A stretch of 23,649 bases of DNA, taken from positions 1 to 23,649 of IMG/VR virus record IMGVR_UViG_3300025030_001414; one strand, given 5' to 3'. Positions within the stretch are counted from its first letter, which is position 1. Every line of letters begins with the position of its first letter. Made by a program: the position numbers and the translations under genes. The notes under the pieces were generated by a model. It saw only the letters and a list, made by a program, of their open reading frames with translations, did not search any database and was not told the origin of the DNA. Positions 7,436 through 23,112 of this stretch are shown here, in pieces. Origin of the DNA: a virus.

Positions 7436-8404
7436 ATGGCACACTACAGCATAAAGGACAAATCGCCTATATGGGGAAGCGTCAACAAGTCAACCCTTCC
7501 AATAGAAGCCTTTGCCTATCCTCATGCGATGATGCTTGCTGGGAAGATGACAGAAAAAAAGGCTCTCTACCTTCCCAAGTCAGAGTGGAAGTTACCCCAC
7601 CATTGGGAATCTGAAGGAAAACTCTGGGCACACCCAACAGGAGTTCAACTTGCCCTTCAAGCCATGGGGGCAGGACTCATGGGACAGAAAGTCAAACTTC
7701 CTGCCAGTGCCACAAGCATCGTAAGGGCACACCTAAACCAACATCTGAAAGGAGTAGAGCGTGTGAATACCAAGAAAGCAAAACAGAAAAAGGTTATAAC
7801 CGCCGAGCAAGCATTAGATCACCTGGAACAAATCGAGAACAACGATACAACCGTTCTCGACATTGAGGGATTAGCTCGTTGCATTGAAAGCCAAGAAGAA
7901 GCACTGACTCAGTTATGCACCTCACTTGACTTAGAAGAAGTCAATCTCAAGAATGCACAATCTCAAATTGAAAAGTTGGTTGCCGAGAAACAAAAAGTTG
8001 AGAAGCTAACCACCGATCTCACCACAAGTCTCACAACCATCAAGACACTTGAGACCGAAAGGGATACGATAAAATCCGAGAAAGAAAAAACCGACACTCT
8101 CTTTACGCTGCTAACCACAGAACGAGACACACTTCAAGCCACAGTCAACACCCGTCATAAAAAGTTAGTCTCACAAATTGTTGGCAAACACGAGTTAGTT
8201 GGACATGATAAATTAGCAGTCGAGGCATTCAAGACCCGCGCAGAGAAGCTCACGTTTGACGAACTCGATGCAGAGATGACAACGATCACGAAACAACTTG
8301 AGGAGAGCTGGGGGCCTGCCATCCGAATAAGCCAGCCCGCAGATGGGGTAGAAGCCCTGACCCGTCCACTCAACCTAGCAAAACTGCAAGGATTTCGAGT
8401 ATGA
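7436..8404 (+). CDS. putative capsid scaffolding / head assembly protein
   Basis: A 322-residue protein, the first of the rightward operon, with GAGG about 6 nt upstream. Residues 12-105 (SVNKSTLPIEAFAYPH, KALYLPKSEWKLPHH, KLWAHPTGVQLALQAMGA, RAHLNQHLKG) resemble a small domain seen in phage head-assembly proteins (DUF6582-like, from memory). Residues about 150-240 form a long coiled coil rich in Thr, Lys and Glu, and 255-290 another short helix. A coiled-coil protein directly before decoration and capsid genes is typical of a scaffold. The assignment rests on position and architecture, not on a clear family motif. Its stop overlaps the next start (ATGA). Confidence 0.55.
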   Translation: MAHYSIKDKSPIWGSVNKSTLPIEAFAYPHAMMLAGKMTEKKALYLPKSEWKLPHHWESEGKLWAHPTGVQLALQAMGAGLMGQKVKLPASATSIVRAHLNQHLKGVERVNTKKAKQKKVITAEQALDHLEQIENNDTTVLDIEGLARCIESQEEALTQLCTSLDLEEVNLKNAQSQIEKLVAEKQKVEKLTTDLTTSLTTIKTLETERDTIKSEKEKTDTLFTLLTTERDTLQATVNTRHKKLVSQIVGKHELVGHDKLAVEAFKTRAEKLTFDELDAEMTTITKQLEESWGPAIRISQPADGVEALTRPLNLAKLQGFRV

Positions 8405-8727
8405 GGAAGAAATGCTCAATGCTGAATGTTCAATGTTTTTCATTCATCATTCATCATTTAACATTCATAATTACAATGGCCCAGCGAATCAAAGGGTTCT
8501 TAACAGAGAACAAGCCCACTCACACAGATACAGTGATGCGAATCGAGAAAGGAGACATTGTACTCCTACGCAACGAGTATCTGGAGGTGGACGGCTTCTT
8601 CCGAACACACAAAGGAAAACTCTGCATGAGGCTTGGTATCCCGAAGGAACGAGAGAAGTTTCGTCACTGGGCACAGAAGAACCCTCATAAGGTCAAACAC
8701 TTAGAAACATGCACCACCCTATTATGA
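8401..8727 (+). CDS. hypothetical protein with repeat-derived N-terminus
   Basis: A 108-residue protein. ATG 8401 overlaps the upstream stop and has AAGGA about 8 nt before it, so this start is preferred. Residues 1-25 are encoded by a short-repeat tract (MLNVQCFSFIIHHLTFIIT). The probable original protein begins MAQRIKGFLTENK at 8476 and continues with a small beta-rich domain (GDIVLLRNEYLEVDGFF, GKLCMRLGIPKER), possibly an SH3-like barrel. Position between scaffold and decoration genes suggests a head-related role. No family recognised. Confidence 0.55.
   Translation: MRKKCSMLNVQCFSFIIHHLTFIITMAQRIKGFLTENKPTHTDTVMRIEKGDIVLLRNEYLEVDGFFRTHKGKLCMRLGIPKEREKFRHWAQKNPHKVKHLETCTTLL
8410..8475. 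repeat. ATTCATCATT-type short-repeat tract
   Basis: AATGCTGAATG, ATTCATCATTCATCATTT and ACATTCATAATT units fill 66 nt at the 5' end of a reading frame. They match the repeat style at 1622-1710. The tract keeps the frame open and adds about 22 codons upstream of an internal ATG at 8476. Confidence 0.8.
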
Positions 8728-8802: not shown

Positions 8803-9273
8803 ATGCCAACATGGGCAGATACAGCAGGAACCGCCGATAAGGTGAGAAGTCCCCAACCCGAAGGAGATAAAGTCGCCTATTTTGCAGTTGAGATTATCAG
8901 AACCGCCAGCGTTCGAGAGTTCGTCGAGACCGATTTAGACGACAGAAAAATATGCGCAGTCCTCGAATCAACAGGCAATACACCAACCGTCGGGAAGGGC
9001 GCAGATGGAGACCCCGCCTTCGGGTTCATCGAGGACATCAGTGAGGACGGCGCGGTCGCAGATGTTCTCATTCTAGGTATCTCCAGTGATGTCGCTTACG
9101 CCGCCGCATCCGAAGACCCTGATGTTGGAGATGCCATACAGTCAAAAGGTGACGGCACAGTGAAACAGGCTATAGCCACTCCCACAATTTCCGCAGGACA
9201 ACGTAACATTGGACGCGGGCATGTCATTTACAAGAATACGACCGATTCATACTGTCGTATCTTGTGGGTTTAA
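8803..9273 (+). CDS. putative head decoration protein
   Basis: A 156-residue protein with AAGGAGG about 8 nt before its ATG. The second half (GFIEDISEDGAVADVLILGI, GDAIQSKGDGTVKQAIATP, AGQRNIGRGHVIYKNTTDSY) follows the beta-rich pattern of small phage decoration/stabilisation proteins (DUF2190-like). Those proteins have a Gly-rich turn, GDxxxxxxDGxV, then a final strand. It lies directly before the capsid protein gene, where such proteins usually are. It would bind the outside of the mature head. The family assignment is from pattern recognition and needs a profile search. Confidence 0.65.
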   Translation: MPTWADTAGTADKVRSPQPEGDKVAYFAVEIIRTASVREFVETDLDDRKICAVLESTGNTPTVGKGADGDPAFGFIEDISEDGAVADVLILGISSDVAYAAASEDPDVGDAIQSKGDGTVKQAIATPTISAGQRNIGRGHVIYKNTTDSYCRILWV

Positions 9274-9286
9274 GGAGGAACACACA

Positions 9287-10507
9287 TTGCGACAACCATT
9301 CACAGAATATGCACAACGCATCAAACAAACCCAGGGCATGCTCAACACATTGTACGGAAATGTTGAGAACACCTACATGATGTCACTTGATATGACAGGC
9401 GCACAGAAACTCGCGGACACCGTGAAGCACTGGTCACAAACCCGCTCCACCGAGCTCTATCACACGGCTAAAGACAAAGGGATGTATCCGTGGGAAACCT
9501 TAGAAGACATGGACCCCTCCCCCCGAAATCTGGAGGGTCAGATTATTGCTCCACTCGATGCAATGGAACGCTGTCTTTATGCACTTGGACAGAATCTTTC
9601 CCAAATGACAGTCGATCAGTTTTATGCAGGCCCCGCCATGATTCTCGGGCCCGCCATGATCCTTCGCTGGATTCGTGAAGGAATCTTGATGGGCAGTGGG
9701 AGCATGGGACTCTTTGCCATTGACCGCCGCACCGTTGGATTAACCGCCCATCCCCTCTACCTGGAGGGACAAACCGCCGCGGGTGCTGCCGCACAAGCCC
9801 CTCCCACGACAACCGACGCCAAGCGATTAGGTGCTGTTGGAGCCCAGGGGCTTCCCACTACCAAGATTGGATATCGTGATAAGACCGTCAACATCGGCAC
9901 CTTCGGACGCAACCTCGTCTTTGAGGACGCCTTTGTCAAATACGCCACCATGCAAGAACTCCGAATGATATTCATCTTCCTCGGGCTTCAGATGGCATGG
10001 GACGATCGCGGAAACATCTTCGAGATTATAGACGTCGGCGACGGCGTGAGTGGTGCCCCTCCAACCCGACTTCAGATTAGTGGAGGCGGTGGCGCTGGAA
10101 CGCTTGTGTTCAAAGACCTCATCACCGCGATCGTGCGCATGAATGAAGGTGGATTCAAGGTGACACATTGGATTGGAGAGTCCGATTCGCTGATCGACTT
10201 TCTCACGCTCTCTCAGTTCTCAGGTGCGAATGAACGCGACACCACGCTGAGGGAATTACTCTCGCAGGACGGCCCACTCGCCACTCCATTAGGATACCTA
10301 CTCACATCACCCAATCCACCCGCGGATGCTGACCACCTTGGCTTCTTCGATTCACGGTGGGCAATCGCACGAGTTGAGGAAACTCCCATCACCATTAACA
10401 CCGACAAGGTGCTCGAGATGATTTGGGAGCAGATTGCCATTCACGCCCGATGGGCCTTCTACAAACTTTTTCCCGACAGCAGCGGGGTCGTCGACTTTTC
10501 GGCATAA
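9287..10507 (+). CDS. major capsid protein (HK97 fold)
   Basis: A 406-residue protein, a usual length for an HK97-type capsid subunit. TTG 9287 is chosen because AAGGAGG lies 8 nt upstream. An in-frame ATG at 9209 would force a long overlap with the decoration gene. The protein starts RQPFTEYAQRIKQTQGML, has a helical N-terminal region, a Gly/Ala-rich loop (GQTAAGAAAQAPPTTTDAKR), strands around GYRDKTVNIGTFGRNLVFED, and an A-domain-like end (GFFDSRWAIARVEETPITIN). It sits between decoration and fibre genes. Residues 115-126 repeat GPAMIL twice in tandem. No protease site can be assigned with certainty. Confidence 0.8.
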   Translation: MRQPFTEYAQRIKQTQGMLNTLYGNVENTYMMSLDMTGAQKLADTVKHWSQTRSTELYHTAKDKGMYPWETLEDMDPSPRNLEGQIIAPLDAMERCLYALGQNLSQMTVDQFYAGPAMILGPAMILRWIREGILMGSGSMGLFAIDRRTVGLTAHPLYLEGQTAAGAAAQAPPTTTDAKRLGAVGAQGLPTTKIGYRDKTVNIGTFGRNLVFEDAFVKYATMQELRMIFIFLGLQMAWDDRGNIFEIIDVGDGVSGAPPTRLQISGGGGAGTLVFKDLITAIVRMNEGGFKVTHWIGESDSLIDFLTLSQFSGANERDTTLRELLSQDGPLATPLGYLLTSPNPPADADHLGFFDSRWAIARVEETPITINTDKVLEMIWEQIAIHARWAFYKLFPDSSGVVDFSA

Positions 10508-10519
10508 GGAGGAATAATC

Positions 10520-12355
10520 ATGGCATTAGGAGCATACAACGAAGGGCTAATTCGCGCTTCCTCCTTAGACCAAGTCAAGGCATGGTTAGCAGGTGGGGTT
10601 GGGACTGACTCACTTCCCGCCAAGCCGCGCGTTGACGACATAGACCGCGTCTACATTGACAATGAGGATACCACAAGCGGAAACGCCCTACAAATCATAA
10701 GCACCATCACAACGTCCAATGTAATTGATGTATCTGCTGCTTCCCTTACCACAGGGAAGGGTATTGACATGTCCAACCTGGACGCGCTAACAACAGGCAA
10801 GGCGATTCATGTTGATGCCACTGGGGTTACACAGACTGATGGGATTCTGGTTCATGTTGATTCAGCGTCAACCGCTCTCACCGCAACAGGTCGGCTTCTG
10901 CTCATTGACCACACTGGCGCATCCTCGGTCTCTGGTGTTCTGACAGAATTTAAGTCAGCCGCCGCAGATGAAACCACCATCGTCCAAATCAACGCCACCG
11001 CCGCGCTCGCATTAGGAGTTGCACTTGACATTTCTCTCGCTGCGATGACCACAGGCAAGGGCATTGATATGAGCAATCTGGACGCTATCACCACGGGGAA
11101 AGCCCTTCATATCGACGCGACGGGAGTCACACAAACAACTGGCATCTTGGTCCACATCGACTCCGCCGCAACCGTGCTGACAGGAGCAGGTCGACTGCTT
11201 CTGGTCGACCACACTGGGGTCACAACGACCAATGGTGTGATTGCGGAGATACTTTCTGCCGCCAATGATGAAACTGTGATTGCCCAGATTCTCGCATCTG
11301 ACGCACTGGCTGGCGGTAAGGTGTTGAACCTATCCGCAGCTTCAATGACCACAGGCACCACACTTGCACTTTCAAACCTGAATGCGATCACAACAGGCAT
11401 CGGCATTCATATTGCATCAAGCGCAACCGCGATAACAGGGGCTGGACGGCTGCTCTACGTCAATCACACGGGTACCACGACGACCAGTGGAACGCTCATT
11501 GAATTTGCGTCATCAGCGACCGATGAAACCGATGTGGTCAAACTCAACGGCACTGGACAGGGATCTGGACGAACACTCGTCATTGTCGGTGGCTTTGACC
11601 TCGATGTGAAAGGTGGATATAACCGTCAGGAGGGAATCTCAAACCGTTTTCGATTAACATGGGCCGCAGGGCAACGTGGAAAACCAGGCATCAACGCGGA
11701 TATTCAAGATAGCTCGTCGGGTGGCGCTGGAACGGGTGAGGCTGTTCGCATGATTGCTGACCCTGATTTTGAAATATTGGGAACCAGCGCAACATCAGCA
11801 AGCTCCACGTTTGCAGTTGAAGGCGGAATTATACTGACAACTGGTGCTTCGGACAGCGACCAAACCATCCTCGCGCCTCACCTGGACGCCAATCAAACCG
11901 CGTGGACGCAAGTCACATGGGGCACCGACCAATCGACACGATGGGAATGCCGCATCCAAACTGGCACATCTATCACGGACGTGATAATCTGGGCTGGTTT
12001 GAAACTAACCAATACACCCGTCACAACAACCGATGCCAACCAAGCCTTCTTCCGTTATGAGGAAGGTGTCATCGCAGGAAACTGGCAAGCAATTGACAGC
12101 ATTAGCAACACGGATAATGCAGTTGATTCAGGCGTTGTTGTTGCCATAAATACCGATTATCATCTGGTTATTGATATTGATTCAGCACGAGTCGCGCGCT
12201 TTTTTATTGATGGTGTTCTAGTCTCCACGAGTGCTGCACTGACCAGTGCCATTGATATGATTCCCTACATTGGGGTGATGGTTCAAGCAGGTGGCGCTGC
12301 GGGCGCAAAGACCCTTACGGTAAGAGGTCAAGCAATTTCCAGAAATTACGCGTAA
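10520..12355 (+). CDS. repeat-containing fibre-like structural protein
   Basis: A 611-residue protein, 12 nt after the capsid gene, with AAGGAGG upstream. Residues 76-360 hold three repeats of about 100 residues, each starting TTGKGIDMSNLDA or similar, then HIDATGVTQTTGILVHIDS and GRLLLVDHTG. The third lacks about 15 residues. Such Thr/Ala/Asp-rich units form beta-helices in phage fibres. Residues about 430-600 look like a lectin-type jelly roll (WTQVTWGTDQSTRWECRIQT, DYHLVIDIDSARVARFFIDG, MIPYIGVMVQA). The place next to capsid genes suggests a fibre on the head or neck that contacts the host surface, but a tail fibre is not excluded. Confidence 0.7.
   Translation: MALGAYNEGLIRASSLDQVKAWLAGGVGTDSLPAKPRVDDIDRVYIDNEDTTSGNALQIISTITTSNVIDVSAASLTTGKGIDMSNLDALTTGKAIHVDATGVTQTDGILVHVDSASTALTATGRLLLIDHTGASSVSGVLTEFKSAAADETTIVQINATAALALGVALDISLAAMTTGKGIDMSNLDAITTGKALHIDATGVTQTTGILVHIDSAATVLTGAGRLLLVDHTGVTTTNGVIAEILSAANDETVIAQILASDALAGGKVLNLSAASMTTGTTLALSNLNAITTGIGIHIASSATAITGAGRLLYVNHTGTTTTSGTLIEFASSATDETDVVKLNGTGQGSGRTLVIVGGFDLDVKGGYNRQEGISNRFRLTWAAGQRGKPGINADIQDSSSGGAGTGEAVRMIADPDFEILGTSATSASSTFAVEGGIILTTGASDSDQTILAPHLDANQTAWTQVTWGTDQSTRWECRIQTGTSITDVIIWAGLKLTNTPVTTTDANQAFFRYEEGVIAGNWQAIDSISNTDNAVDSGVVVAINTDYHLVIDIDSARVARFFIDGVLVSTSAALTSAIDMIPYIGVMVQAGGAAGAKTLTVRGQAISRNYA
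10745..11584 (+). repeat. three protein-level repeats of about 300 bp
   Basis: Units start at 10745, 11045 and 11345. Spacing is exactly 300 nt for the first two steps, and the third unit is about 45 nt shorter. DNA identity is clearly lower than protein identity, with many synonymous changes, so the duplications are old and kept by selection. Confidence 0.85.
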
Positions 12356-14057: not shown

Positions 14058-14249
14058 ATGGAATCCTGCTATTTTTGCAAACGAAGCTACAAAACCATAG
14101 AAGAACAAAAGGATGCGGGTGTGGTGTATTGCCCTCATCCCAACGGGCGTATTGCATGTGAGCCTTGCTGGAGTCAATTTATTAAACAAGTCCAAATATT
14201 ATCACAAGACAAGTCCACTCAAGCAATTTTACGCAATATCATCTCCTGA
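14058..14249 (+). CDS. Cys-rich zinc-binding mini-protein (copy 1)
   Basis: A 63-residue protein with AAGGAGA before its ATG. It contains CYFC near the start, then VYCPHPNGRIACEPCW, giving five Cys in a CxxC-x-C-x-CxxC pattern typical of a small treble-clef or zinc-ribbon fold, followed by one helix (SQFIKQVQILSQD). It is clearly related to the protein at 14481 (same CYFC, VYC-P-P-G and ACxxC spacing and the KQV helix). It may bind nucleic acid or stabilise a protein complex during assembly. Function unknown. Confidence 0.7.
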   Translation: MESCYFCKRSYKTIEEQKDAGVVYCPHPNGRIACEPCWSQFIKQVQILSQDKSTQAILRNIIS

Positions 14250-14262
14250 AGGGCGGTAGTTT

Positions 14263-14475
14263 ATGGCATGGACTGGACCTTACAATGCTTTCGGCATCGA
14301 CTTTTCAGACACAGTTGCGAACGCCCTCCCCTGGACCATTGACCAAGCATCCAACGCGGCATCCGTCTCTGTCCGAGTGTGGGCAAATGATGCCGCACGA
14401 CTTGGAAAGCAACGAGAAATCGGAAGTCACTTCTACCAGTGGATTTCTGGGGGAATGGTTGAGGAGAAGGAGTAG
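14263..14475 (+). CDS. hypothetical small protein between the Cys-rich pair
   Basis: A 70-residue protein starting MAWTGPYNAFGIDF. The upstream GGGCGG is a weak ribosome binding site, so coupling to the preceding gene is likely. It has no Cys, no membrane span and no recognised motif. The pattern ALPWTIDQASNAASVSVRVW may form strands. It separates the two related Cys-rich genes, which suggests it arrived with, or was caught in, the duplication. Confidence 0.5.
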   Translation: MAWTGPYNAFGIDFSDTVANALPWTIDQASNAASVSVRVWANDAARLGKQREIGSHFYQWISGGMVEEKE

Positions 14476-14480
14476 GCAGG

Positions 14481-14684
14481 ATGGAATCTCGTATAGATTT
14501 TTGTTACTTTTGCAGAAAGATACCCCTTGAACCCGTGTACTGCCCAAACCCACGGGGTCAGGTTGCATGTACCGCATGTTTTGACGCATTCTGTAAACAA
14601 GTACGAGAGTTATCAACGGTTTTACCCATTCACCACATTAAGCATTTAGCATCACCCAGGCTTGGAAAGCGAGATAGGCCCTGA
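14481..14684 (+). CDS. Cys-rich zinc-binding mini-protein (copy 2)
   Basis: A 67-residue paralogue of the protein at 14058. It shows CYFC, then VYCPNPRGQVACTACF and the helix DAFCKQVREL. A spacer of about ten residues present in copy 1 is shorter here. The tail differs completely (HHIKHLASPRLGKRDRP) and is basic. Conserved Cys spacing with divergent tails points to selection on the zinc core. Ribosome binding site GCAGG lies just upstream of ATG. Confidence 0.7.
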   Translation: MESRIDFCYFCRKIPLEPVYCPNPRGQVACTACFDAFCKQVRELSTVLPIHHIKHLASPRLGKRDRP

Positions 14685-14694
14685 GAGGCATGAA

Positions 14695-15129
14695 ATGGCA
14701 TTCACAACCGTTCAACGCGTCAAAGACCTCACTCGTGACCAGGGCACTGCATTCCACAACGCGCCCACCGAGAATGCGATAACGAATGCGGTCGATGGCG
14801 CAAACGCTTATCTTGAACAGATAGGGATTGATTCAGCAACAACTGATGCTGGACTTCTCATTGCCGCAGACCGCCTCGCCATGTCCTATCTCATGGAAGG
14901 CGAACTATCCCGAATGCTCTTACGAGGAGAAGCGCAAGCCATTGGAAGTTTTCGGCTTGCCGTTGACCAACTCCGATTTGCAGCGATTAACGATGCACAA
15001 ATCTATATACCCATCAGCTTCCGAAACACGCACATTCGAGCCAATCGAGACTTTGCCTTTAGGCGAGGAGGACCCCTTTATGGTGGAAGTGAAGCTGGAC
15101 GTTACCGACGGCGTGGAGACAAGCAATAA
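14695..15129 (+). CDS. putative second head-tail connector
   Basis: A 144-residue protein. ATG 14695 is chosen because GAGAGG precedes it; in-frame ATG 14662 would overlap the previous gene. The opening FTTVQRVKDLTRDQGTAFHN followed by NAITNAVDGANAYLEQIGI is the same layout as the connector at 12644 (VxxR, disordered link, IxxxIDxAxxxI helix). The bundle continues with ADRLAMSYLMEGELSRML and ends in a basic, Arg/Gly-rich tail (RRGGPLYGGSEAGRYRRRG). A head-completion or stopper protein is plausible. The 3' end overlaps the next gene by 50 nt. Confidence 0.55.
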   Translation: MAFTTVQRVKDLTRDQGTAFHNAPTENAITNAVDGANAYLEQIGIDSATTDAGLLIAADRLAMSYLMEGELSRMLLRGEAQAIGSFRLAVDQLRFAAINDAQIYIPISFRNTHIRANRDFAFRRGGPLYGGSEAGRYRRRGDKQ

Positions 15130-15391
15130 CGAATGGACAAATGAGCAAATGAGCGAATATACGAATGAGCGAATAGAAGAAAATGATTCGCTCATTCGCA
15201 AGTCCGCAAATTCGCTTTCGTGTCCTCAGCACTCACTCGCATGGTGGCATCAAGTCATCAACGTACCAAGTCCACCCAAACACAAACGCGGTGAAAAACC
15301 ATCTATCACCGCAGCCAAGCGATATGTCCACCGCGGAACCCCCACCGCGAAAGAAATATCAAGAATTAAAAGAGAGAGGGGTCAATCATAA
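15080..15391 (+). CDS. hypothetical protein with acidic start and basic tail, expanded by short repeats
   Basis: A 103-residue protein. ATG 15080 has GAGGAGG about 8 nt upstream and lies inside the end of the connector gene. Residues 20-52 are encoded by GCGAAT-type repeats (NEWTNEQMSEYTNERIEEN). The C-terminal part is Pro/Lys/Arg-rich (NVPSPPKHKRGEKPS, ISRIKRERGQS). The acidic-then-basic layout resembles the small proteins that follow, so it could be a distant or altered member of that family. No known domain. Confidence 0.5.
   Translation: MVEVKLDVTDGVETSNNEWTNEQMSEYTNERIEENDSLIRKSANSLSCPQHSLAWWHQVINVPSPPKHKRGEKPSITAAKRYVHRGTPTAKEISRIKRERGQS
15131..15220. repeat. GCGAAT-type repeats with 13-bp inverted repeat
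   Basis: Units such as GAATGAGCGAAT and AAATGAGC occur several times. CGAATGAGCGAAT (15162-15174) and its exact reverse complement (15186-15198) form a hairpin with an 11-nt loop. It lies inside a reading frame and belongs to the same repeat type as 3279-3320. Confidence 0.8.
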
Positions 15392-15417: not shown

Positions 15418-15717
15418 ATGACCGAGAATATGAGTATCATCAGTTTTGATGAGAATCTAGTATCTGGCTTTTGGGGTGAAGGTGCAAGTATAGAGGGGGT
15501 AGAACTTGCCGCCCGTAAGCCATCAACTCGGGGGAACGTAGCACCCCCTACCCCCTGGTTACAACCTGGACACTACCGTTATCGGGGGAAACGGGAAAGC
15601 ATCGCACCGACGACGAACCCCTGGCGTGATAAGGGCGGCAAGCGTCATCCAGCCATTAACCCACCCAAGAGTAAGGAGCCTCGGTGGAAGAAAGCACCAA
15701 AAGGGTCCCTTGCATAA
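15418..15717 (+). CDS. polyampholytic small protein, ENMS subgroup
   Basis: A 99-residue protein with AAAAGGAG before its ATG. It begins with an acidic, hydrophobic leader (MTENMSIISFDENLVSGFW) and switches at residue 32 to LAARKPSTRG, then a Pro/Trp/Arg/Lys-rich tail (APPTPWLQPGHYRYRGKR, INPPKSKEPRWKKAPK). The opening matches the protein at 19640 (MIENMSLELTEN), and both have LA-R-KP at the switch. The tail should be disordered and positively charged. Possible roles include binding DNA or capsid interior during packaging. No known family recognised. Confidence 0.65.
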   Translation: MTENMSIISFDENLVSGFWGEGASIEGVELAARKPSTRGNVAPPTPWLQPGHYRYRGKRESIAPTTNPWRDKGGKRHPAINPPKSKEPRWKKAPKGSLA

Positions 15718-15727
15718 GGAGATAACT

Positions 15728-16036
15728 ATGTTTTCAGAAGAAATGTTTTCAGAAGAAAATCTCATAGAAGATTTCAGTAACGAACCGATGATAGAGGAGA
15801 ACTCTATCCCGAAGCGCCCCCCCCCCGATGATAATAAAGCAAGGGTTTTATCACTCAAGACAGAGATAAACAGGAGCAGGCGTAAAGATCTCCCATCATT
15901 AAAGCCCAGGATACACTATCAGTCACCCTCACCTATCTCAAAGCCGATTCCACGAGTCTATCCAAAGAAACAGACAATTCCTATCCCGACTCGAACACCC
16001 AAAAGTCGGTTGAGGCCTGATAGAAAACATACTTAA
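15728..16036 (+). CDS. polyampholytic small protein, MFSE subgroup
   Basis: A 102-residue protein with AAGGAGA 8 nt before ATG 15728. The leader contains the motif twice in tandem (MFSEEMFSEENLIEDF), then acidic residues to about position 27, followed by KRPPP and a tail rich in Arg, Lys, Pro and Ser (HYQSPSPISKPIPRVYPKK, IPIPTRTPKSRLRPDRKH). No Cys, no membrane span. It directly follows another gene of this type. The frame is open upstream but lacks a ribosome binding site there. Confidence 0.65.
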   Translation: MFSEEMFSEENLIEDFSNEPMIEENSIPKRPPPDDNKARVLSLKTEINRSRRKDLPSLKPRIHYQSPSPISKPIPRVYPKKQTIPIPTRTPKSRLRPDRKHT

Positions 16037-16055
16037 TACACTCAGAGAAGTAATT

Positions 16056-16355
16056 ATGTTTTCAGAAGACGGATTCACTTCCTCGGGGCAGGCCCAACTA
16101 TCAAGCACCAGATGTTTTCACAACCCAGGGACCTCAGAAGAACTAGGACTCAAAGGATGGTGGAAAGGACTCAAAGAAGATAAGCCAGAGAAGCGATACA
16201 TATCACCTTCAGAGCGCCGAGCCTTTCCCAAAACACTTGGATACCCACCCAGGCCCAAGCCAGCAAAGCACGGACCCTGGGCTCCTGGAGAGACCAAGCC
16301 ACCCAAGTACAAGGAACATTCAGATGATTATCATCGGTCGATGCAAAATCTGTAA
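16056..16355 (+). CDS. polyampholytic small protein, MFSE subgroup
   Basis: A 99-residue protein beginning MFSEDGFTSSGQAQ, encoded by the same ATGTTTTCAGAA start as three other genes here. The tail is Pro/Lys-rich with aromatic residues (RRAFPKTLGYPPRPKPAKHG, PGETKPPKYKE). A middle segment GLKGWWKGLKEDKPEKRY is unique to it. Ribosome binding site GAGAAG is moderate. Its last 32 nt overlap the start of the terminase small subunit, so their translation is likely coupled. Confidence 0.6.
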   Translation: MFSEDGFTSSGQAQLSSTRCFHNPGTSEELGLKGWWKGLKEDKPEKRYISPSERRAFPKTLGYPPRPKPAKHGPWAPGETKPPKYKEHSDDYHRSMQNL

Positions 16356-16731
16356 GTCTAAACACGCAAAAGAAATCTCACAAATGATGCTTGATGAGAT
16401 ACCCTATCCAGAAATCATCAAGAAGTTCCCTGAAATACGACTTTACAAGCAAGTCCTCAGTCACCATCGAAAGCATATCATTGACGAAATCAACTTCCCC
16501 GATATATCCGACCACGAGTTTGTAGACCGAATCAAGAAGTTAGCAAGCGGTTATCTTGAGAGGGGGCTAGAGGGCAAAGAGTTATCACTCACACAAACCC
16601 GTCTCATACAGACCGCTGCCAACGCTGTCGCGTTCCGCAAGCAAATCCAAGACAAGAGCGACGTTGAGGCATCACTTGAAAAGTTAGTCAAAGAGGCTTC
16701 TCAATCCAAGTGGAAGTATGAGACCGTATGA
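16324..16731 (+). CDS. terS: putative terminase small subunit
   Basis: A 135-residue protein. ATG 16324 is chosen because AAGGAA lies about 8 nt upstream and the conserved region begins at once: RCKICKSKHAKEISQMMLD, then EIPYPEIIKKFPEI and QVLSHHRKHI. This is the layout of phage small terminases with a CxxC knuckle (Cys7, Cys10), a helix-turn-helix and a HHxxH segment (His47, His48, His51) that may complete a zinc site. The rest is helical and would form the oligomer core. It recognises packaging DNA and stimulates the large subunit, encoded 424 nt downstream after one intervening small gene. Confidence 0.7.
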   Translation: MIIIGRCKICKSKHAKEISQMMLDEIPYPEIIKKFPEIRLYKQVLSHHRKHIIDEINFPDISDHEFVDRIKKLASGYLERGLEGKELSLTQTRLIQTAANAVAFRKQIQDKSDVEASLEKLVKEASQSKWKYETV

Positions 16732-16744
16732 GAGGAAAAATATC

Positions 16745-17152
16745 ATGTTTTCAGAAAATACGTTTATAGATGCTGATAATTGGGGTTTCCATCAAGACAG
16801 GGCTAACCCTAATCCAATAGGAGACAACACCATGTTATCAGAAGATTTAGTTTTAGAAAGTTTGTTCTCTAATTCAGGGTCACTAGAGGAAGATTTTGAT
16901 ATGTTTCGACAAGGCTCAACAACCAAACTCAATCCAACGGAATTAAAAGCGAAGTACCGCGGTGCGGGGCTTCCTCCTGGAGGGCGGGACGCAGCAAACA
17001 AGCAAAAGGAGTTCTTTAGAAAACGAGAAGCTGTTATTAAGAAACAAAGACCCATTGGTGGAAAACCACCAATACAAAGATTCACGCCATTTCCCAAACC
17101 CGCCGTGCGGCCTAAGCCTCCTAAAGTTATGAAACCAGAAAAGGTTGAGTAA
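16745..17152 (+). CDS. polyampholytic small protein, MFSE subgroup, with two possible starts
   Basis: A 135-residue protein beginning MFSENTFIDADNWGFHQ, with GAGG before ATG 16745. An internal in-frame ATG at 16832 has its own AGGAG nine nucleotides upstream and opens with a second leader-like sequence (MLSEDLVLESLFSNSGSLEE). Two products, of 135 and 106 residues, are therefore possible, or the gene is a fusion of two leaders. The tail is basic and Pro-rich (KAKYRGAGLPPGGRD, IGGKPPIQRFTPFPKPAV, RPKPPKVMKPEKVE). It lies between the small and large terminase genes and ends 2 nt before the latter. Confidence 0.65.
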   Translation: MFSENTFIDADNWGFHQDRANPNPIGDNTMLSEDLVLESLFSNSGSLEEDFDMFRQGSTTKLNPTELKAKYRGAGLPPGGRDAANKQKEFFRKREAVIKKQRPIGGKPPIQRFTPFPKPAVRPKPPKVMKPEKVE

Positions 17153-17154
17153 CC

Positions 17155-18567
17155 ATGAAGGTTCACCCATTTGCCCAAGCGGCCAAAGACCCAGTTTTCT
17201 TCGGTCACGCCCTACTTCACTGGCAAGCCCATCCCGCACAAGCAGCGTGGCTTAGGAACAGCATCCATCCCCTCAACCTGTGTCGCGCAGGAAACCGATG
17301 GGGAAAGACAGAATCTATTGCCATCAAGCATCTATGGAAATGTTGCTTCAAGATTCGAGAACCTAAATGGAGTTATGAGGCACCCTATCAAACGGTGAAT
17401 ACCTCCATCACCCTCGATCAGGCATCATTGCCCTTATTGAAGGCATGGAACATTATCAACCGCGAGGAAAACAAGACCTTTCGGAAAATCTTTATTGACC
17501 GTATCGTGCGAACCCCATTCCCAAGAATCGTATTTCAGAATGGAAGCGTATGGTGGGGACGCAGTACCACGCGAAAGGGAGAATACCTGGAAGGGTGGGA
17601 CTTCGACTATGCAAGTTATGACGAATGCTCGTTTGACCCCCAGTATAACCATATTGTCGATGAGGTGTTATCACTTCGGCTCTTAGACCGAGGCGGGCAA
17701 ATTGATTGTATTAGCACAGGAAAACGCCGCAGCGAATTCAATCAAAGGTTTGAGAAGTTCCACAAGAACCGAGGATTTTCCCTATCCACCGAACAAACGG
17801 ATGTCTACACGCAACAAGGCAGAACGCTTGATAACCCAAACTTAGACCAGGACGCGTTAAACCGAATCATCAAGACAATGGATAAGGGGTTGTTAGAGGA
17901 ACGCATTTACGGAGGCGAACGTCCCACGGAGGGACGAATCCCATACCCCTCCATCATGCGAGCCATAGAGCAAGCCACAGGACTTGATCGCGCGTACATT
18001 GGAAGCCGATACAGCACAGGGTGGGACTTAGCAAAGACCCGAAATATGACGGTTGGCGTAACCATTGACATCTCCGAAAGCCCCTATCAAGTTGTTGCGT
18101 GGGAAGCATTCAACCAGAATACAGAGGGCATCACGAGTGAAACCACATACTGGCAGCATGTATGGGACAGAATCCGAACCCGATGGGAAATCTATGGTGG
18201 ACTCACACAAGTCGATGTTACAGGGATTGGGAGCATCATTACCGATTACTTATCAGAGATTCAAGCGGAACCCCTCAACTTCAGTGGGCAGAAGGTAGGC
18301 GAACTCATCTCCTGCGTTGAAATTGCACTAGGTCTTGGGGTTGTCGCGTTTCCCATGTTGTCCATGACCCTGCCAGACGGAAGAAGCTGGAATATCGTCA
18401 ATGAGTTAGAAGAAGTCAGTGATGCGCTTGATGGACTTGACACCGCGACCGCCATCGCCATGGCACTCTGGGGGGTCCGAGCCGAAATTCAAGGAAAGAT
18501 ACCCATTACCATTTCACCTAAGATTATTGGAATCTCACAAGCCAAATCAAAACGCAAAATTGCGTAA
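17155..18567 (+). CDS. terL: terminase large subunit
   Basis: A 470-residue packaging motor and nuclease. The ATPase half shows Walker A at 45-52 (AGNRWGKT), Walker B with catalytic Glu at 149-157 (DFDYASYDE), and a coupling motif near ISTGKRR (186-192). The RNase H-like nuclease half shows three acidic sites: Asp291 in GWDLAKT, Asp354 in QVDVTGIG and Asp429 in DGLDTATAIAMALWG. Length is normal for the family. It starts 2 nt after the preceding small gene. It would dock on the portal, pump DNA into proheads and cut the concatemer. All key residues are visible, so it should be active. Confidence 0.93.
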   Translation: MKVHPFAQAAKDPVFFGHALLHWQAHPAQAAWLRNSIHPLNLCRAGNRWGKTESIAIKHLWKCCFKIREPKWSYEAPYQTVNTSITLDQASLPLLKAWNIINREENKTFRKIFIDRIVRTPFPRIVFQNGSVWWGRSTTRKGEYLEGWDFDYASYDECSFDPQYNHIVDEVLSLRLLDRGGQIDCISTGKRRSEFNQRFEKFHKNRGFSLSTEQTDVYTQQGRTLDNPNLDQDALNRIIKTMDKGLLEERIYGGERPTEGRIPYPSIMRAIEQATGLDRAYIGSRYSTGWDLAKTRNMTVGVTIDISESPYQVVAWEAFNQNTEGITSETTYWQHVWDRIRTRWEIYGGLTQVDVTGIGSIITDYLSEIQAEPLNFSGQKVGELISCVEIALGLGVVAFPMLSMTLPDGRSWNIVNELEEVSDALDGLDTATAIAMALWGVRAEIQGKIPITISPKIIGISQAKSKRKIA

Positions 18568-18578
18568 GGAGTTTTAAT

Positions 18579-18887
18579 ATGTTTTCAGAAAACAGTTTAG
18601 AAGAAATCATGAGTAGTTTAGTAGAAAACTCGAATTACGTTGATATGGAGGCGAGCGAGTCACTTGCAAAGAAGGTAAATTATCGAGACCCCAAAAAGAA
18701 GTACTCGCGTGGCCCATTACCGCCCCCAAACATACCCCTTGGGTCATACCCTTCAAGTGGTAAACATTTCTTCACTGGGTATCCCCCAGGACGCTCTGGG
18801 TCAAGAGTGTGTGCATCTCCTAGAAACCGAGCAATAATTAACCGAGCCCGAAGAAAGTACGATCGGGCACATCCAAATAGCGAGTAG
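18579..18887 (+). CDS. polyampholytic small protein, MFSE subgroup
   Basis: A 102-residue protein with AAGGAG 8 nt before its ATG. It begins MFSENSLEEIMSSLVENSNY, then SLAKKVNYRDPKKKY marks the switch to a basic tail with GPLPPPNIPLGSYPSSGKH and a highly Arg-rich end (PRNRAIINRARRKYDRAH). The middle PPPxxPxxSYP pattern is shared with the protein at 19640 (PPPYVPKSYPG). It lies between terminase large subunit and glycosyltransferase, 11 nt after the former and 3 nt before the latter. Confidence 0.7.
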   Translation: MFSENSLEEIMSSLVENSNYVDMEASESLAKKVNYRDPKKKYSRGPLPPPNIPLGSYPSSGKHFFTGYPPGRSGSRVCASPRNRAIINRARRKYDRAHPNSE

Positions 18888-18890
18888 TCT

Positions 18891-19595
18891 ATGTCCAATC
18901 GCTTAATTGATATTGTGATGCCTTGCGTTCAGGGGCGTATTATCCCGCCAGAGGTCCTCATGGGGACCTTATGGCATTGTGGGATTCGTACTAGCCTAAT
19001 CGTATCAACCGCTTTTCCATCAAATCTAACTCAGGCTCGCAATACAGTAAAGTTGTATGCAGAGACAGAGTTAGTTCTAATGCTAGATAATGATGTGGTT
19101 CTACCACCACGAAGTCTTGAAGGGATGGCATCCTTTTTAGATTGCCATCCTGACTTCGGCGCGATTGCACTCGCAAAATACCCATCTTGTGTCAAGCCAA
19201 TTCTTAACAATAGTCAAGTCACAGAACCCAACCATGTGGACATGAGCTGTGTTCTTTGGCGCAAGGATATTCTGCATAATATGGAGTTTCGCACCACTCA
19301 AGATTCAACCTACTGTGACTGTCTACCCGCTTGTGAAGACTTACGTAAGGCAGGGCATCGGATTGGTTTTATGCCTAAGTGGGTGTGTACCCATTTCGAG
19401 AATACAGACACAGGGTTATCAGTAGCACAACAGGCAGTTTTACCTACAATTACGGGCTTAATGGACAAAGTGGCGATTCAGCAAGTATTAAAGGATTATG
19501 GATTATGGTGGATAAATAAAAAGGGGGTCCAAAGGGAAGCCGAACCGTTCCTGCACAAAACCCTAGGGGCACCATCAAGAACCCCCCACGCATAA
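18891..19595 (+). CDS. family 2-like (GT-A) glycosyltransferase
   Basis: A 234-residue enzyme. Residues 6-60 form an N-terminal nucleotide-binding fold (DIVMPCVQGRIIPPEVL, TSLIVSTAFPSNLTQARNT). The metal/sugar-nucleotide motif is DND at 66-68 (ELVLMLDNDVVLPPRSLEGM). The acceptor side shows VDMSCVLWRKDI and ACEDLRKAGHRIGFMP with Glu149-Asp150, then His168 in VCTHFE. There is no membrane segment, so it acts in the cytoplasm. Inside a packaging operon it could glycosylate a virion protein or modify host surface sugars. The gene looks AT-richer than its neighbours, a possible sign of recent acquisition. Confidence 0.8.
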   Translation: MSNRLIDIVMPCVQGRIIPPEVLMGTLWHCGIRTSLIVSTAFPSNLTQARNTVKLYAETELVLMLDNDVVLPPRSLEGMASFLDCHPDFGAIALAKYPSCVKPILNNSQVTEPNHVDMSCVLWRKDILHNMEFRTTQDSTYCDCLPACEDLRKAGHRIGFMPKWVCTHFENTDTGLSVAQQAVLPTITGLMDKVAIQQVLKDYGLWWINKKGVQREAEPFLHKTLGAPSRTPHA

Positions 19596-19639
19596 AAATC
19601 CCCACAAATTGGATTTAATCAAAAAGGAGGATTTACAAA

Positions 19640-19912
19640 ATGATTGAAAACATGAGTTTAGAACTAACCGAGAATACCTACTTTGAGAGCCAGGAGACAA
19701 TGGAAGAAACAACTGACCTCGCAAGAAGAAAGCCCAGGGCGCTGCCTCCCCCCTACGTACCGAAGAGCTATCCAGGTCGTAGCGGTGATAGTGGAAGTGG
19801 GGGAGGAGATGTACCCAATCCTCTGAAGATCTGGTTTCCGAAACAACCTAAACCACGTCGCATGTTAAAACCCACGAGACCCACAAGAATTCCTGTAAAA
19901 AAACCATATTGA
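19640..19912 (+). CDS. polyampholytic small protein, ENMS subgroup
   Basis: A 90-residue protein with AAGGAGG nine nucleotides before its ATG. The acidic leader MIENMSLELTENTYFESQE leads to DLARRKPRALPPPYVPKSYP, a Gly/Ser-rich linker (GRSGDSGSGGGDVPN), and a strongly basic tail (IWFPKQPKPRRMLKPTRP, RIPVKKPY). The opening matches the protein at 15418 and the Pro motif matches the one at 18579, which ties the two subgroups together. It lies directly before the portal gene. Confidence 0.7.
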   Translation: MIENMSLELTENTYFESQETMEETTDLARRKPRALPPPYVPKSYPGRSGDSGSGGGDVPNPLKIWFPKQPKPRRMLKPTRPTRIPVKKPY

Positions 19913-19929
19913 ATAAGGGGCACCCATGA

Positions 19930-21267
19930 ATGAAGTTTCCAAAAGTCATCAATCAGGCACTTCAAAAAGTATTCGGAATCTCTGAGTCAAAGCCCGCCAG
20001 CCCCCGACTCACATCACCCATCGGGTTCTCAAGTGGGTGGATTGGGAAAAAGGAGTGGCTTGTTGATGAGGGTAGCTTTCTTTCTGACTATTACCGCTAC
20101 CTCAGGGTCCGCGTCCCAATGGTAGCTAATGGAATCCGAATCTGGGTTGACCTCTCAACCAGCGGTAACACGGTATCACTAGAAGGGGGAAGCAAAGATG
20201 ACCAAGAACAGGCTCAAGTCCTCCTTCATGATTTAGATCGACGGGCGTATGAGTTCGACTACGAGTGGGGAAGTGGATTTCAACGACTCTCCGAACTCTT
20301 CTTCCTCAACTTCTATACAAATGGGCGTTTCTGTGCAGAGATTGTACCCTTTGCTGACATGAGCGGGATTGCTTATGTTGCACTGGTAGACCCATTCTCT
20401 GTAAGGTTAAAACGGGAAGGCGATCACGTCAAACTCTATCAAAGCAAACTTTCAGAGAATCGGGTGATGGAAGATAGCCCGCTCCCCAAAGACCGAATCT
20501 TTTATGCAGCGTTTGACCCAGACCCCAAGAACCCGATGGGGTGCTCCATCTTAGACTCCGTGCGATGGGTAGTCGAGGTCAAGGAAAAGCTGCTTGAAGA
20601 CATGGCAAAGGCAAGCCATAACGCGGGGTTCCCAAGGATTAAAGTATCCGTTGCTCCCCCTCCCCAACTACCAGGTGAAAGCGTGAGTGATTACGTAGGG
20701 CGAGTCAATAACGACTTTGATGAGACCGTTAAGCAGTTTCGCTCGCTTGCCCCTGAAGATAACATATTCAGCATGTCCAACATCAATATTGATTACATGG
20801 CAGCCGCAGGCGGGCAAGACTTTCAATGGTCAATCAACCTATCCAGAATTGAAGATGAGATTGTCGCTGGATTAGGACTCTTTGGGTGGCTCGTCGGGAC
20901 ATCCTCATCCAGCACGAAGAACTGGGTGGACAGCCAACACGAAGTCCTCATGCAACGCGTTCAACGGGGTGCACAGCACGGGATTCGCTTCATGGATTGG
21001 GTACGAAATACAGAGCTTCGATTGCGAGGTTGCCCTGTCAGAGCCAGTCAAGATTTCAAGCCATTACGAGACCCAGGACGACTCATCGACGAGAGAGCAA
21101 AACAGTGGGAGCTACAGCGTGTGGATCAGATGGTACAAAGAGGATATATTAGCAAAGATGAAGGCGCACGACAAATCGGACTTGACCGAGCCCATAGACA
21201 AGACACACCTGAAGAGATGTTCCTGTCCACAACCCAACGGGGAAAACCAGGTAAATCTGCAAATTGA
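19930..21267 (+). CDS. portal protein
   Basis: A 445-residue protein that would form the dodecameric ring at the packaging vertex. Recognisable parts are the N-terminal entry region (EGSFLSDYYRYLRVRVPMVA, NGIRIWVDLSTSGNTVSLE), the wing strands (NFYTNGRFCAEIVPFADMSG, YVALVDPFSVRLKREGDHV), the helix after PKDRIFYAAFDPDPKNPMGC, and the crown region with ASHNAGFPRIKV and DNIFSMSNINIDYMAAAGG. ATG 19930 has AAGGGG nine nucleotides upstream; ATG 19926 is in another frame. Length is normal for HK97-like portals. It precedes the prohead protease as in most tailed phages. Confidence 0.85.
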   Translation: MKFPKVINQALQKVFGISESKPASPRLTSPIGFSSGWIGKKEWLVDEGSFLSDYYRYLRVRVPMVANGIRIWVDLSTSGNTVSLEGGSKDDQEQAQVLLHDLDRRAYEFDYEWGSGFQRLSELFFLNFYTNGRFCAEIVPFADMSGIAYVALVDPFSVRLKREGDHVKLYQSKLSENRVMEDSPLPKDRIFYAAFDPDPKNPMGCSILDSVRWVVEVKEKLLEDMAKASHNAGFPRIKVSVAPPPQLPGESVSDYVGRVNNDFDETVKQFRSLAPEDNIFSMSNINIDYMAAAGGQDFQWSINLSRIEDEIVAGLGLFGWLVGTSSSSTKNWVDSQHEVLMQRVQRGAQHGIRFMDWVRNTELRLRGCPVRASQDFKPLRDPGRLIDERAKQWELQRVDQMVQRGYISKDEGARQIGLDRAHRQDTPEEMFLSTTQRGKPGKSAN

Positions 21268-21346
21268 CACCTGCCCCACTTGTGGACACAAACAAGTTAG
21301 AGGAACCCCAGTGAACGCTATCGGAGGAAAATTATGCAGGCAATAA
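21158..21346 (+). CDS. candidate zinc-ribbon mini-protein overlapping portal and protease genes
   Basis: A 62-codon frame that starts inside the portal gene and ends inside the protease gene; 66 nt lie in the otherwise gene-free gap. It encodes RCSCPQPNGENQVNLQ followed by DTCPTCGHKQVRG, a good zinc-ribbon pattern (CxC and CPxCGH). The CPxPNG part resembles CPHPNG in the Cys-rich protein at 14058. GAGGA lies about 13 nt upstream of the ATG, weak support. The overlap of 110 nt with the portal gene is unusual, so the real start could be later or the frame may be a chance or a relic. Confidence 0.4.
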   Translation: MKAHDKSDLTEPIDKTHLKRCSCPQPNGENQVNLQIDTCPTCGHKQVRGTPVNAIGGKLCRQ

Positions 21347-22296
21347 CACTAGGTACAATCATCACAGACCTTACCCACAAAGATGATTTCACGGAGAAAA
21401 TTAACACACTCTCAACGACCCGAAAAGCACTCAAAGCCGACGAGGTTGTCGTGTGGACACCGCGCCTGATTGGAACAGAGACCACCGTACACGGAGGGCA
21501 ACTCAGAGAAAGCGATCTCACCCTATTTGCCCAACTCACGATTGGCGCTCCCATTCTCATCGGACATCAAAAGGAGACCAAGCCCATCGGTCGAGTCTAT
21601 GATGCGTGGGTCGAGCAGAAAATGGTCTATGCACCCTTCTATGTCCCACTTGCGCGAAGCGATACCCAAGACCTAATCATTGACATCAATACAGGTATCA
21701 TCGCAGAAGTATCCGCATCCTTCGCCTTTGACAAACCAACCTGCTCAATTTGTAGCCAGGATATGCGCTCCCTCCAATGCGGACATGTCCCCTTCAAGGA
21801 CAACGCGTTCTTCTACTACGAAACACCCCAGAAAGTATTAGAAATCTCCCTCGTCTACCGAGGTGGATACCCAGGCACTGGGTTTGCCAACCTCATGAAT
21901 GACCCAGAATGGACAGATAAATTTACCGCACTTTCAAAAGGAGATAAAACATTGCAAAAACAAATGATTGAAAACCTGATGGTTCCTGGACTCGTCTCAC
22001 TCTTAAACCGATTAGTTGAAGACCGATGCAAAAATGGTGAATACTCCACAATGACCCGCATCAAGTGCATCACGCAAATGGCAAGTTACGCAGATATGGC
22101 AGTATCCGATGTTGAGGGATTACTTACCAAAGAGGTCAAGATATGCCCAACCCTCGATCAGTTACGAGGATTTGCCACGGCACTTTCATGTCCAGCAACC
22201 CCCATCATTCGGGAAGCCATGAAGGACGGCTGCGAGTATGACGTCAAGATGATTCAAAAGAAAGATGGCGAGATTGCTTACCGAAACTATATGTAG
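21334..22296 (+). CDS. prohead protease
   Basis: A 320-residue protein with GGAGG 7 nt before its ATG. The N-terminal 180 residues match the herpesvirus-like/S78 prohead protease pattern. His78 lies in PILIGHQKETKPIGRV and a Ser in AEVSASFAF (Ser127). A zinc-like insertion has CSIC and QCGH (Cys137, Cys140, Cys149, His151), followed by the strand LEISLVYRGGYPGTG (170-184). Active proteases of this family process scaffold and capsid N-termini during head maturation. The C-terminal 130 residues are helical and may act as a scaffold or targeting segment. The likely substrates are encoded 11-14 kb upstream, an unusual separation. Confidence 0.8.
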   Translation: MQAITLGTIITDLTHKDDFTEKINTLSTTRKALKADEVVVWTPRLIGTETTVHGGQLRESDLTLFAQLTIGAPILIGHQKETKPIGRVYDAWVEQKMVYAPFYVPLARSDTQDLIIDINTGIIAEVSASFAFDKPTCSICSQDMRSLQCGHVPFKDNAFFYYETPQKVLEISLVYRGGYPGTGFANLMNDPEWTDKFTALSKGDKTLQKQMIENLMVPGLVSLLNRLVEDRCKNGEYSTMTRIKCITQMASYADMAVSDVEGLLTKEVKICPTLDQLRGFATALSCPATPIIREAMKDGCEYDVKMIQKKDGEIAYRNYM

Positions 22297-22305
22297 GAGA
22301 CAGAC

Positions 22306-23112
22306 ATGCCACTGCCCAAGCGTAGTGATATTCAACCCATCGAAATCCAAGATGGTGCCGGAAACCAACGAACCGCAAACGTCACCGCCGCGAATGAGTT
22401 AAACACACTGACATCAGCTCAACCCGGAGTTGATATCGGGGACGTCACCATTAACAACGCGGCGGGTGCCAGTGCCGTCAATGTTCAAGATGGGGGAAAT
22501 AGCCTCACAGTCGATCAGACAACCCATGATAACTTAAACTTAAACGCCAACCTACAAATCGCCAATATCGACGTTCCTGGGGGTGCTGGTGCCGTCACTG
22601 CGAATGTGCCCCGAGCCACACTTGCATCAGACGACCCAGCGGTCATCGCCCTCCAAGCCATAGATGACTGGGACGAGACTGACAGAGCGAAAGTTAATTT
22701 GATTGCAGGACAGGTTGGCATTGTCGGAGGTACAGGAGTTGATGCTGTCAATGCTCCCCGAGTGTCATTGGCGACCAATATTCCTCTGCCTGCTGGGACT
22801 AATGAAATTGGAAGTGTCGGGATTAAGAAGTATACGGCCCCCACAAGTGGTGAACTTGCTGGATCTGTAAGTGCTGTTCAAATGCCCAGTATTACATGTA
22901 GTATGGTTAATTTTAAGGCAGTGCTTTCTAATGCTGGGAATGTATATATCGGTATTTCAGGAGTGACCGTGGTTGATGGTACAACGGATACAACAACAGG
23001 GTTTGAATTAGGCCCCGGTGACGAAACAGGTTTTATCCCAGTTGACAATCTCAATCGTTTTTACCGCATCTCTAACAATGCGGGCGATGACCTAACCTAT
23101 CTAACGTACTAA
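22306..23112 (+). CDS. beta-rich virion surface protein
   Basis: A 268-residue protein 9 nt after the protease gene. Residues 1-160 are Asn/Ala/Val-rich short strands (VTINNAAGASAVNVQDGGN, VPGGAGAVTANVPRATLASD), a fibre-like pattern common in phage structural proteins. Residues 190-268 form a small beta-sandwich (NVYIGISGVTVVDGTTDTTT, GFELGPGDETGFIPVDNLNR, FYRISNNAGDDLTYL) seen at the ends of several virion proteins. It could be a decoration or fibre subunit. The last third looks AT-richer than the first, suggesting a mosaic C-terminal domain. Confidence 0.65.
   Translation: MPLPKRSDIQPIEIQDGAGNQRTANVTAANELNTLTSAQPGVDIGDVTINNAAGASAVNVQDGGNSLTVDQTTHDNLNLNANLQIANIDVPGGAGAVTANVPRATLASDDPAVIALQAIDDWDETDRAKVNLIAGQVGIVGGTGVDAVNAPRVSLATNIPLPAGTNEIGSVGIKKYTAPTSGELAGSVSAVQMPSITCSMVNFKAVLSNAGNVYIGISGVTVVDGTTDTTTGFELGPGDETGFIPVDNLNRFYRISNNAGDDLTYLTY

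Follow-up and report, generated by a model that had tools for sequence, protein, structure and literature searches.

The internal proteins of phage T4 are small and basic and bind DNA at low salt, a leader of 10 residues suffices to target them to the head, and their mature parts diverge and are poorly conserved among related phages (PMC9026906). In the giant phages SPN3US and phiKZ, inner head paralogues that vary in number share an identical N-terminal start and undergo processing (PMC5694885). Here, we describe six small genes (s1 to s6) of a 23,649-base virus record (IMGVR_UViG_3300025030_001414; this whole stretch of DNA is referred to as the window), which are best read as accessory genes that have expanded in one lineage and encode disordered proteins with a charge split. 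Adenovirus protein VII was also considered as a parallel for their products. PMC4177764 cites the work of Arbiol and colleagues (2010) on mobile regulatory cassettes in plastic genome regions of T4-type phages. In these cassettes, a short repeat reportedly accompanies small genes that are variable and lie between conserved neighbours, and it is said to be an intergenic regulatory element.

Small genes in the late head operon

Named families were matched in the window by an integrase, a D5-type primase, the major head protein (MCP), the large terminase (TerL) and the portal; the labels scaffold (7436-8404), TerS, glycosyltransferase (GT) and protease are based on weak matches, position or synteny. 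The D5-type primase matches are scattered widely and do not identify the host phylum. Tandem HHSPLTTHHSPLT and FIIHHLTFII low-complexity stretches in the primase (5679-6164) and g7 (8401-8470) regions may help to identify the host. The MCP (9281-10507) seems to start at the TTG at 9287, behind AAGGAGG, rather than at 9209, where another TTG lies upstream. The small genes and their neighbours, with Shine-Dalgarno (SD) sequences where relevant, are the following:

s0, 15080..15391, + strand: ORF of 103 aa with SD GAGGAGG, acidic front and basic back, without the shared leader; uncertain member of the family
s1, 15418..15717, + strand: 99 aa, AAGGAG SD, leader MTENMS, charge switch with LAARKP, basic tail rich in Pro
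s2, 15728..16036, + strand: 102 aa, SD TAAGGAGA, leader MFSEEMFSEE, basic Pro-rich tail
s3, 16056..16355, + strand: 99 aa, leader MFSED, weak SD (-2.9 kcal/mol), weakest charge split
putative TerS, 16324..16731, + strand: CxxC N-terminus; a 39% identical gene holds the same position in the closest relative
s4, 16745..17152, + strand: 135 aa, composite, with leader MFSEN at its start and a further leader, MLSED, inside the gene at 16832
TerL (large terminase), 17155..18567, + strand: phrog_2 terminase large subunit, E 3e-16
s5, 18579..18887, + strand: 102 aa, SD AAGGAG, leader MFSEN, SLAKK switch, LPPPNIPLGSYP
glycosyltransferase-like gene (GT), 18891..19595, + strand: weak GT2-family matches below the curated cut-off (PF13641 E 8e-5)
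s6, 19640..19912, + strand: 90 aa, SD AAGGAGG, leader MIENMS, DLARRKP switch, LPPPYVPKSYP
portal, 19930..21267, + strand: phrog_3753 portal, E 2e-27
putative prohead protease, 21334..22296, + strand: placed by position and by alignment with L032, Jenst and the relatives; directly after the portal, no s-gene between

An earlier note on this DNA, made from the sequence alone, had listed six genes for proteins of 90-135 aa starting at 15418, 15728, 16056, 16745, 18579 and 19640, and both these starts, as + strand ORFs, and the order given around TerS, TerL, GT and portal were confirmed in this contig. The s-genes are packed tightly between their neighbours, the 3' end of s3 overlapping the start of the putative TerS, which matches no named family, by 32 nt. 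A second contig (L002) corresponds to window positions 15866-22572 at 99.97% identity, so the arrangement is no assembly accident of a single record; its 2 differences, both within TerL, are uninformative on selection acting on the s-genes. Inside s0, at 15132-15225, there are direct repeats with a period of 8 bp and a 40-nt inverted repeat (ATGAGCGAAT...ATTCGCTCAT). A second duplicated pair of small genes, at 14058-14249 and 14481-14684, encodes CxxC proteins with 41% identity across 49 aa (E 4e-11). The 70-aa gene that they flank (14263-14475) is unrelated to them, an arrangement like that of s5-GT-s6; in the closest relative, a counterpart of this pair was looked for by tblastn and not found.

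The four s-genes with an MFSE leader start with the same 12 nt, ATGTTTTCAGAA, of which the 23.6 kb hold five exact copies, each at an in-frame ATG of an s-gene. Two of them, at 15728 and 15743, belong to s2, whose leader is a 15-nt tandem duplication. With one mismatch, the sequence is found at two further sites: out of frame in s3 (16112), and at 16832, where s4 has an internal start with a separate AGGAG Shine-Dalgarno and where, rather than at 16745, the profile match of s4 begins. None of the other genes of the window shares the leader. When 300 pairs of gene starts were compared, 11 pairs agreed at 7 or more of the 9 nt that follow the ATG, and 10 of these fell within the family. The leaders of s1 and s6 read M(T/I)ENMS instead and are mutually similar (p 0.003); beyond MFSE, the s-gene leaders resemble each other loosely.

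Similarity over the full length exceeded that of shuffles for s1-s6, s4b-s5, s4b-s6, s5-s6 and s2-s3 (p 0.003-0.043; s4b is s4 taken from its internal start), whereas the tails taken by themselves gave no pair with p<0.05 when compared with shuffled ones (lowest p 0.066), which indicates that the relation is carried by the leader and the switch region and that the tails are alike in composition. Similarity of s0 to s1-s6 was not significant. The elements that the earlier note saw as shared beyond composition are weak: the LA(R/K)(R/K)-like element occurs in three of the six (s1, s5 and s6) and PPPxxP..SYP in two (s5 and s6). On the leader copies and the similarity tests, s1 to s6 are a true paralogous family, and the view of them as a shared leader with hypervariable low-complexity tails stands; the composite s4, the tandem leader of s2 and the charge design of s0 had been overlooked.

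Relatives of the phage and reach of the family

Relatives were found in viral contigs through a TerL motif pattern followed by two-sequence alignments, which brought up none in genomes; scans with TerL, portal and MCP as single proteins gave the near-identical contig alone among viral contigs and nothing in genomes. The closest relative, IMGVR_UViG_3300009537_001285 (L036/L037), has the same gene order over the structural block, with identities of 53% for TerL, 44% for the portal, 46% for MCP, 39% for TerS, 33% for the putative protease and 61% for g23, and it also matches the decoration gene, g10, g12 and g16, the match of the scaffold being weak. The long and internally repetitive g10 (10520-12355; TTGKGIDMSNLDALTTGKAIHVDATGVTQT units), with overlapping matches at L037 2589-4211, is probably a virion or fibre component. 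The gene after the putative protease, g23 (22306-23112), gave no family match and is a conserved late gene in the closest relative, where the identity covers 66 aa of its C-terminal half (L037 13850-14047).

At the syntenic places, s-genes are absent from L036/L037 and from the remoter relatives L038, L039 and L048, and so is a GT between TerL and portal. In the closest relative, the position of s1-s3 is taken by a 122-aa HTH-like ORF, TerS and TerL are separated by an unrelated ORF of 196 aa, and the distance from TerL to portal is 13 nt, compared with 1362 nt (s5-GT-s6) in the window; in the three remoter ones TerS-TerL and TerL-portal overlap, the latter gap being -14, -14 and -20 nt. In the late head operon, the s-genes thus occupy three places, ahead of TerS, between it and TerL, and between TerL and portal, each of which is closed or otherwise filled in the relatives. 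In distant phages (Jenst and faecal scaffolds), BLAST did not find the family.

The earlier statement that such a gene precedes nearly every packaging gene describes this contig, where it applies to TerS, TerL, GT and portal and not to the putative protease, MCP or putative scaffold, and it describes no relative. A conserved alternation or a role in packaging is not supported, because the syntenic relative and the three remoter ones do without s-genes, an observation that the earlier note itself had named as counting against it. Judging from gene order, the s-family and the GT appear to be late, lineage-specific insertions, and the s-genes do not seem to be needed for packaging, or for the expression of packaging genes, in this phage group. 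Since relatives lack them, the s-proteins would be accessory and no part of the packaging machine, and the gene order of one genome should not be taken for a conserved module.

The s-family had no convincing match in PHROGs, Pfam, NCBIfam or PADLOC, and a PDB profile search was empty. The family profile recovered all six s-genes in the window as a positive control and found none among 6005 ORFs of other loci or in the whole records of three relatives. When the leader DNA pattern was run over all viral contigs, 29 (exact) or 58 (synonymous codons) matches were obtained, of which the near-identical contig alone was genuine, the remaining ones being rejected as relatives because their proteins are unrelated. 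Searches of phages by tblastn (s1, s4, s5 and s6) and blastn (the region), and of plasmids by blastn, gave none, and low-complexity filtering may hide weak matches. In everything searched, with a reach that is limited for low-complexity proteins and with few relatives available, the family was restricted to this phage and contig L002, which is nearly identical. It thus appears to have multiplied recently in this phage lineage, and we infer that it spread by whole-gene copying followed by fast divergence of the tails, the short start being presumably the most constrained or the most recently copied part.

Genes of this kind could be fast-evolving accessory genes that act in the host cytoplasm, in host takeover or counter-defence, and are parked in the late operon, with the leader as a relic of duplication or a motif for docking on a host partner. 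They are indeed lineage-specific, hypervariable and multi-copy, a further accessory gene (GT) lies among them, all of which is frequent in accessory genes of phages, and any link of their products to head proteins is hypothetical; however, their position in the head/packaging operon suggests late expression and a defence-related library gave no match, and we regard such a role as credible although rather unlikely.

Composition of the proteins and translation signals

The tails of all six s-proteins contain 39-47% Pro, Arg and Lys, whereas the richest 60-aa stretch among the other window genes has 32% and dinucleotide shuffles of the DNA for the tails give 26-32% (p <=0.023 each, 6/6; Fisher 3e-10, a combined value that is somewhat flattered, since these residues were picked after the earlier note had remarked on them). 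Leader acidity was greater than in dinucleotide shuffles in five of the six (Fisher 2e-8), and the split between an acidic front and a basic back beat residue shuffles in the same number; the exception was s3 (p 0.073 and 0.20, respectively), so that the combination of acidic leader and Pro/Arg/Lys tail that had been described holds for every tail and for all leaders and charge splits except those of s3. The proteins have a net charge of +5 to +8 and are otherwise unlike small basic proteins with a common short N-terminal leader, s3 again conforming weakly. The excess is confined to the coding frame and missing from the other frames, which indicates selection on the s-proteins and argues that the products of these genes are used.

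Of the 45 window ORFs of 80-150 aa, 4 passed a filter on charge and proline, and each of the 4 is an s-gene (here, the starts from which s2 and s4 were scored differ from their real ones). From other loci, 6 of 1361 ORFs of this size passed, these six being copies of two distinct and apparently antisense ORFs. Codon usage alone gives weak support to the s-gene frames and fails for s2 and s6. An AlphaFold model made from the six paralogues had low confidence (mean pLDDT 62, pTM 0.13) and no secondary structure, which fits the predicted disorder of the s-proteins.

The same genes might represent a near-neutral expansion, in which a strong start site (the SD plus ATGTTTTCAGAA) is copied by illegitimate recombination and the tails have little function. 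While the tandem leader of s2, the composite s4 and the out-of-frame copy in s3 resemble ongoing slippage or duplication, and tails unlike in sequence and absence from relatives would be expected as well, this explanation is made unlikely by the in-frame excess of acidic fronts and Pro/Arg/Lys tails over dinucleotide shuffles and by six frames that are intact in a compact genome.

Each s-gene has its own SD, of -6.0 to -11.6 kcal/mol with the exception of s3. Translation coupling, by which the small gene would deliver ribosomes to the next start and its fixed first codons and SD would serve efficient or regulated initiation, is quite improbable, for although TerL and GT start 2 and 3 nt after the stops of s4 and s5 with SDs (-3.8 and -3.0 kcal/mol) weaker than most of those of the small genes, and the F-S-E codons are identical in every exact leader copy, the relatives couple TerS, TerL and portal directly as adjoining or overlapping genes and so need no translation module, the portal keeps its own SD (-7.6), and the in-frame amino-acid composition would be superfluous. 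Any influence of the s-genes on how the gene behind them is translated may be incidental.

A possible role in the head and known parallels

For the accessory, charge-split proteins favoured here, we hold tentatively, at somewhat short of an even chance, that they act like the internal head proteins of T4, with docking, virion entry and cleavage taken over by analogy. The s-proteins would be made late, together with the head genes, as their place in the head operon suggests; the acidic leader would dock on the forming head, at the scaffold or the protease, the basic tail would enter the head with the DNA, as T4 internal proteins do, and the proteins would then be cleaved or ejected. Among the three roles suggested in the earlier note, leader-guided virion cargo would fit best on this analogy, and DNA compaction is possible from composition. 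Against the head-protein reading, the leaders are loosely alike beyond MFSE and take another form in s1 and s6, the leader is not found on other window genes, and disorder by itself fits many roles.

A candidate for the cleaving enzyme is the putative prohead protease, so labelled from its position and its conserved residues (His78 and Ser127, together with a Cys/His cluster). It matched no named family, and T4 gp21 and herpes proteases were among the low-Z matches (Z 2.1-2.2) of its low-confidence AlphaFold model. Outside the MFSE copies, the leaders contain 12 hydrophobic-x-E motifs where 6.9 would be expected (p 0.016), a mild enrichment that is not seen with the stricter form (L/I)xE (p 0.12). 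At the far end of what we would entertain is a diversification device, in which a start cassette (SD, ATG and acidic leader) is recopied in the late operon and yields new head-targeted proteins with freely varying disordered basic tails, each cistron being coupled to an essential packaging gene, hence made late and hard to lose.

With regard to known systems, the T4-type cassettes differ from this locus in that the repeat of the s-genes is the start codon region, and promoter-like sites, scanned with the sigma-70 consensus alone, were no commoner here than in shuffles. The same was seen for terminator-like sites, which, like a promoter of its own, a moron-type insertion would bring along. The head paralogue families of SPN3US and phiKZ recall the s-genes by their identical start, but their proteins are much larger and folded, and the protease and its motifs are characterised for them. 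Likeness to IPI-III of T4 extends to small basic paralogues with a short common N-terminal leader, an unlike remainder and poor conservation (PMC9026906). In contrast to those proteins, the s-tails are Pro-rich and seemingly disordered, the s-genes are interspersed among TerS, TerL and portal, and the head lineage is another one; the s-proteins are known here from their genes, and the likeness is one of design rather than of sequence. We do not file them as T4 internal proteins: a leader followed by unlike basic tails is common to both, while leader cleavage, a prohead protease and a place inside the head are putative for the s-proteins. Should the leader have no targeting or docking function, the locus would still illustrate clearly how young paralogues come to lie among essential packaging genes while their frames are under selection at the level of composition. 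If the leader does target or dock the tails, the T4 principle of a shared leader and free cargo would have arisen independently a second time in these genes, in a minimal version with a leader of 4-6 residues and a fully disordered cargo, caught while expanding.
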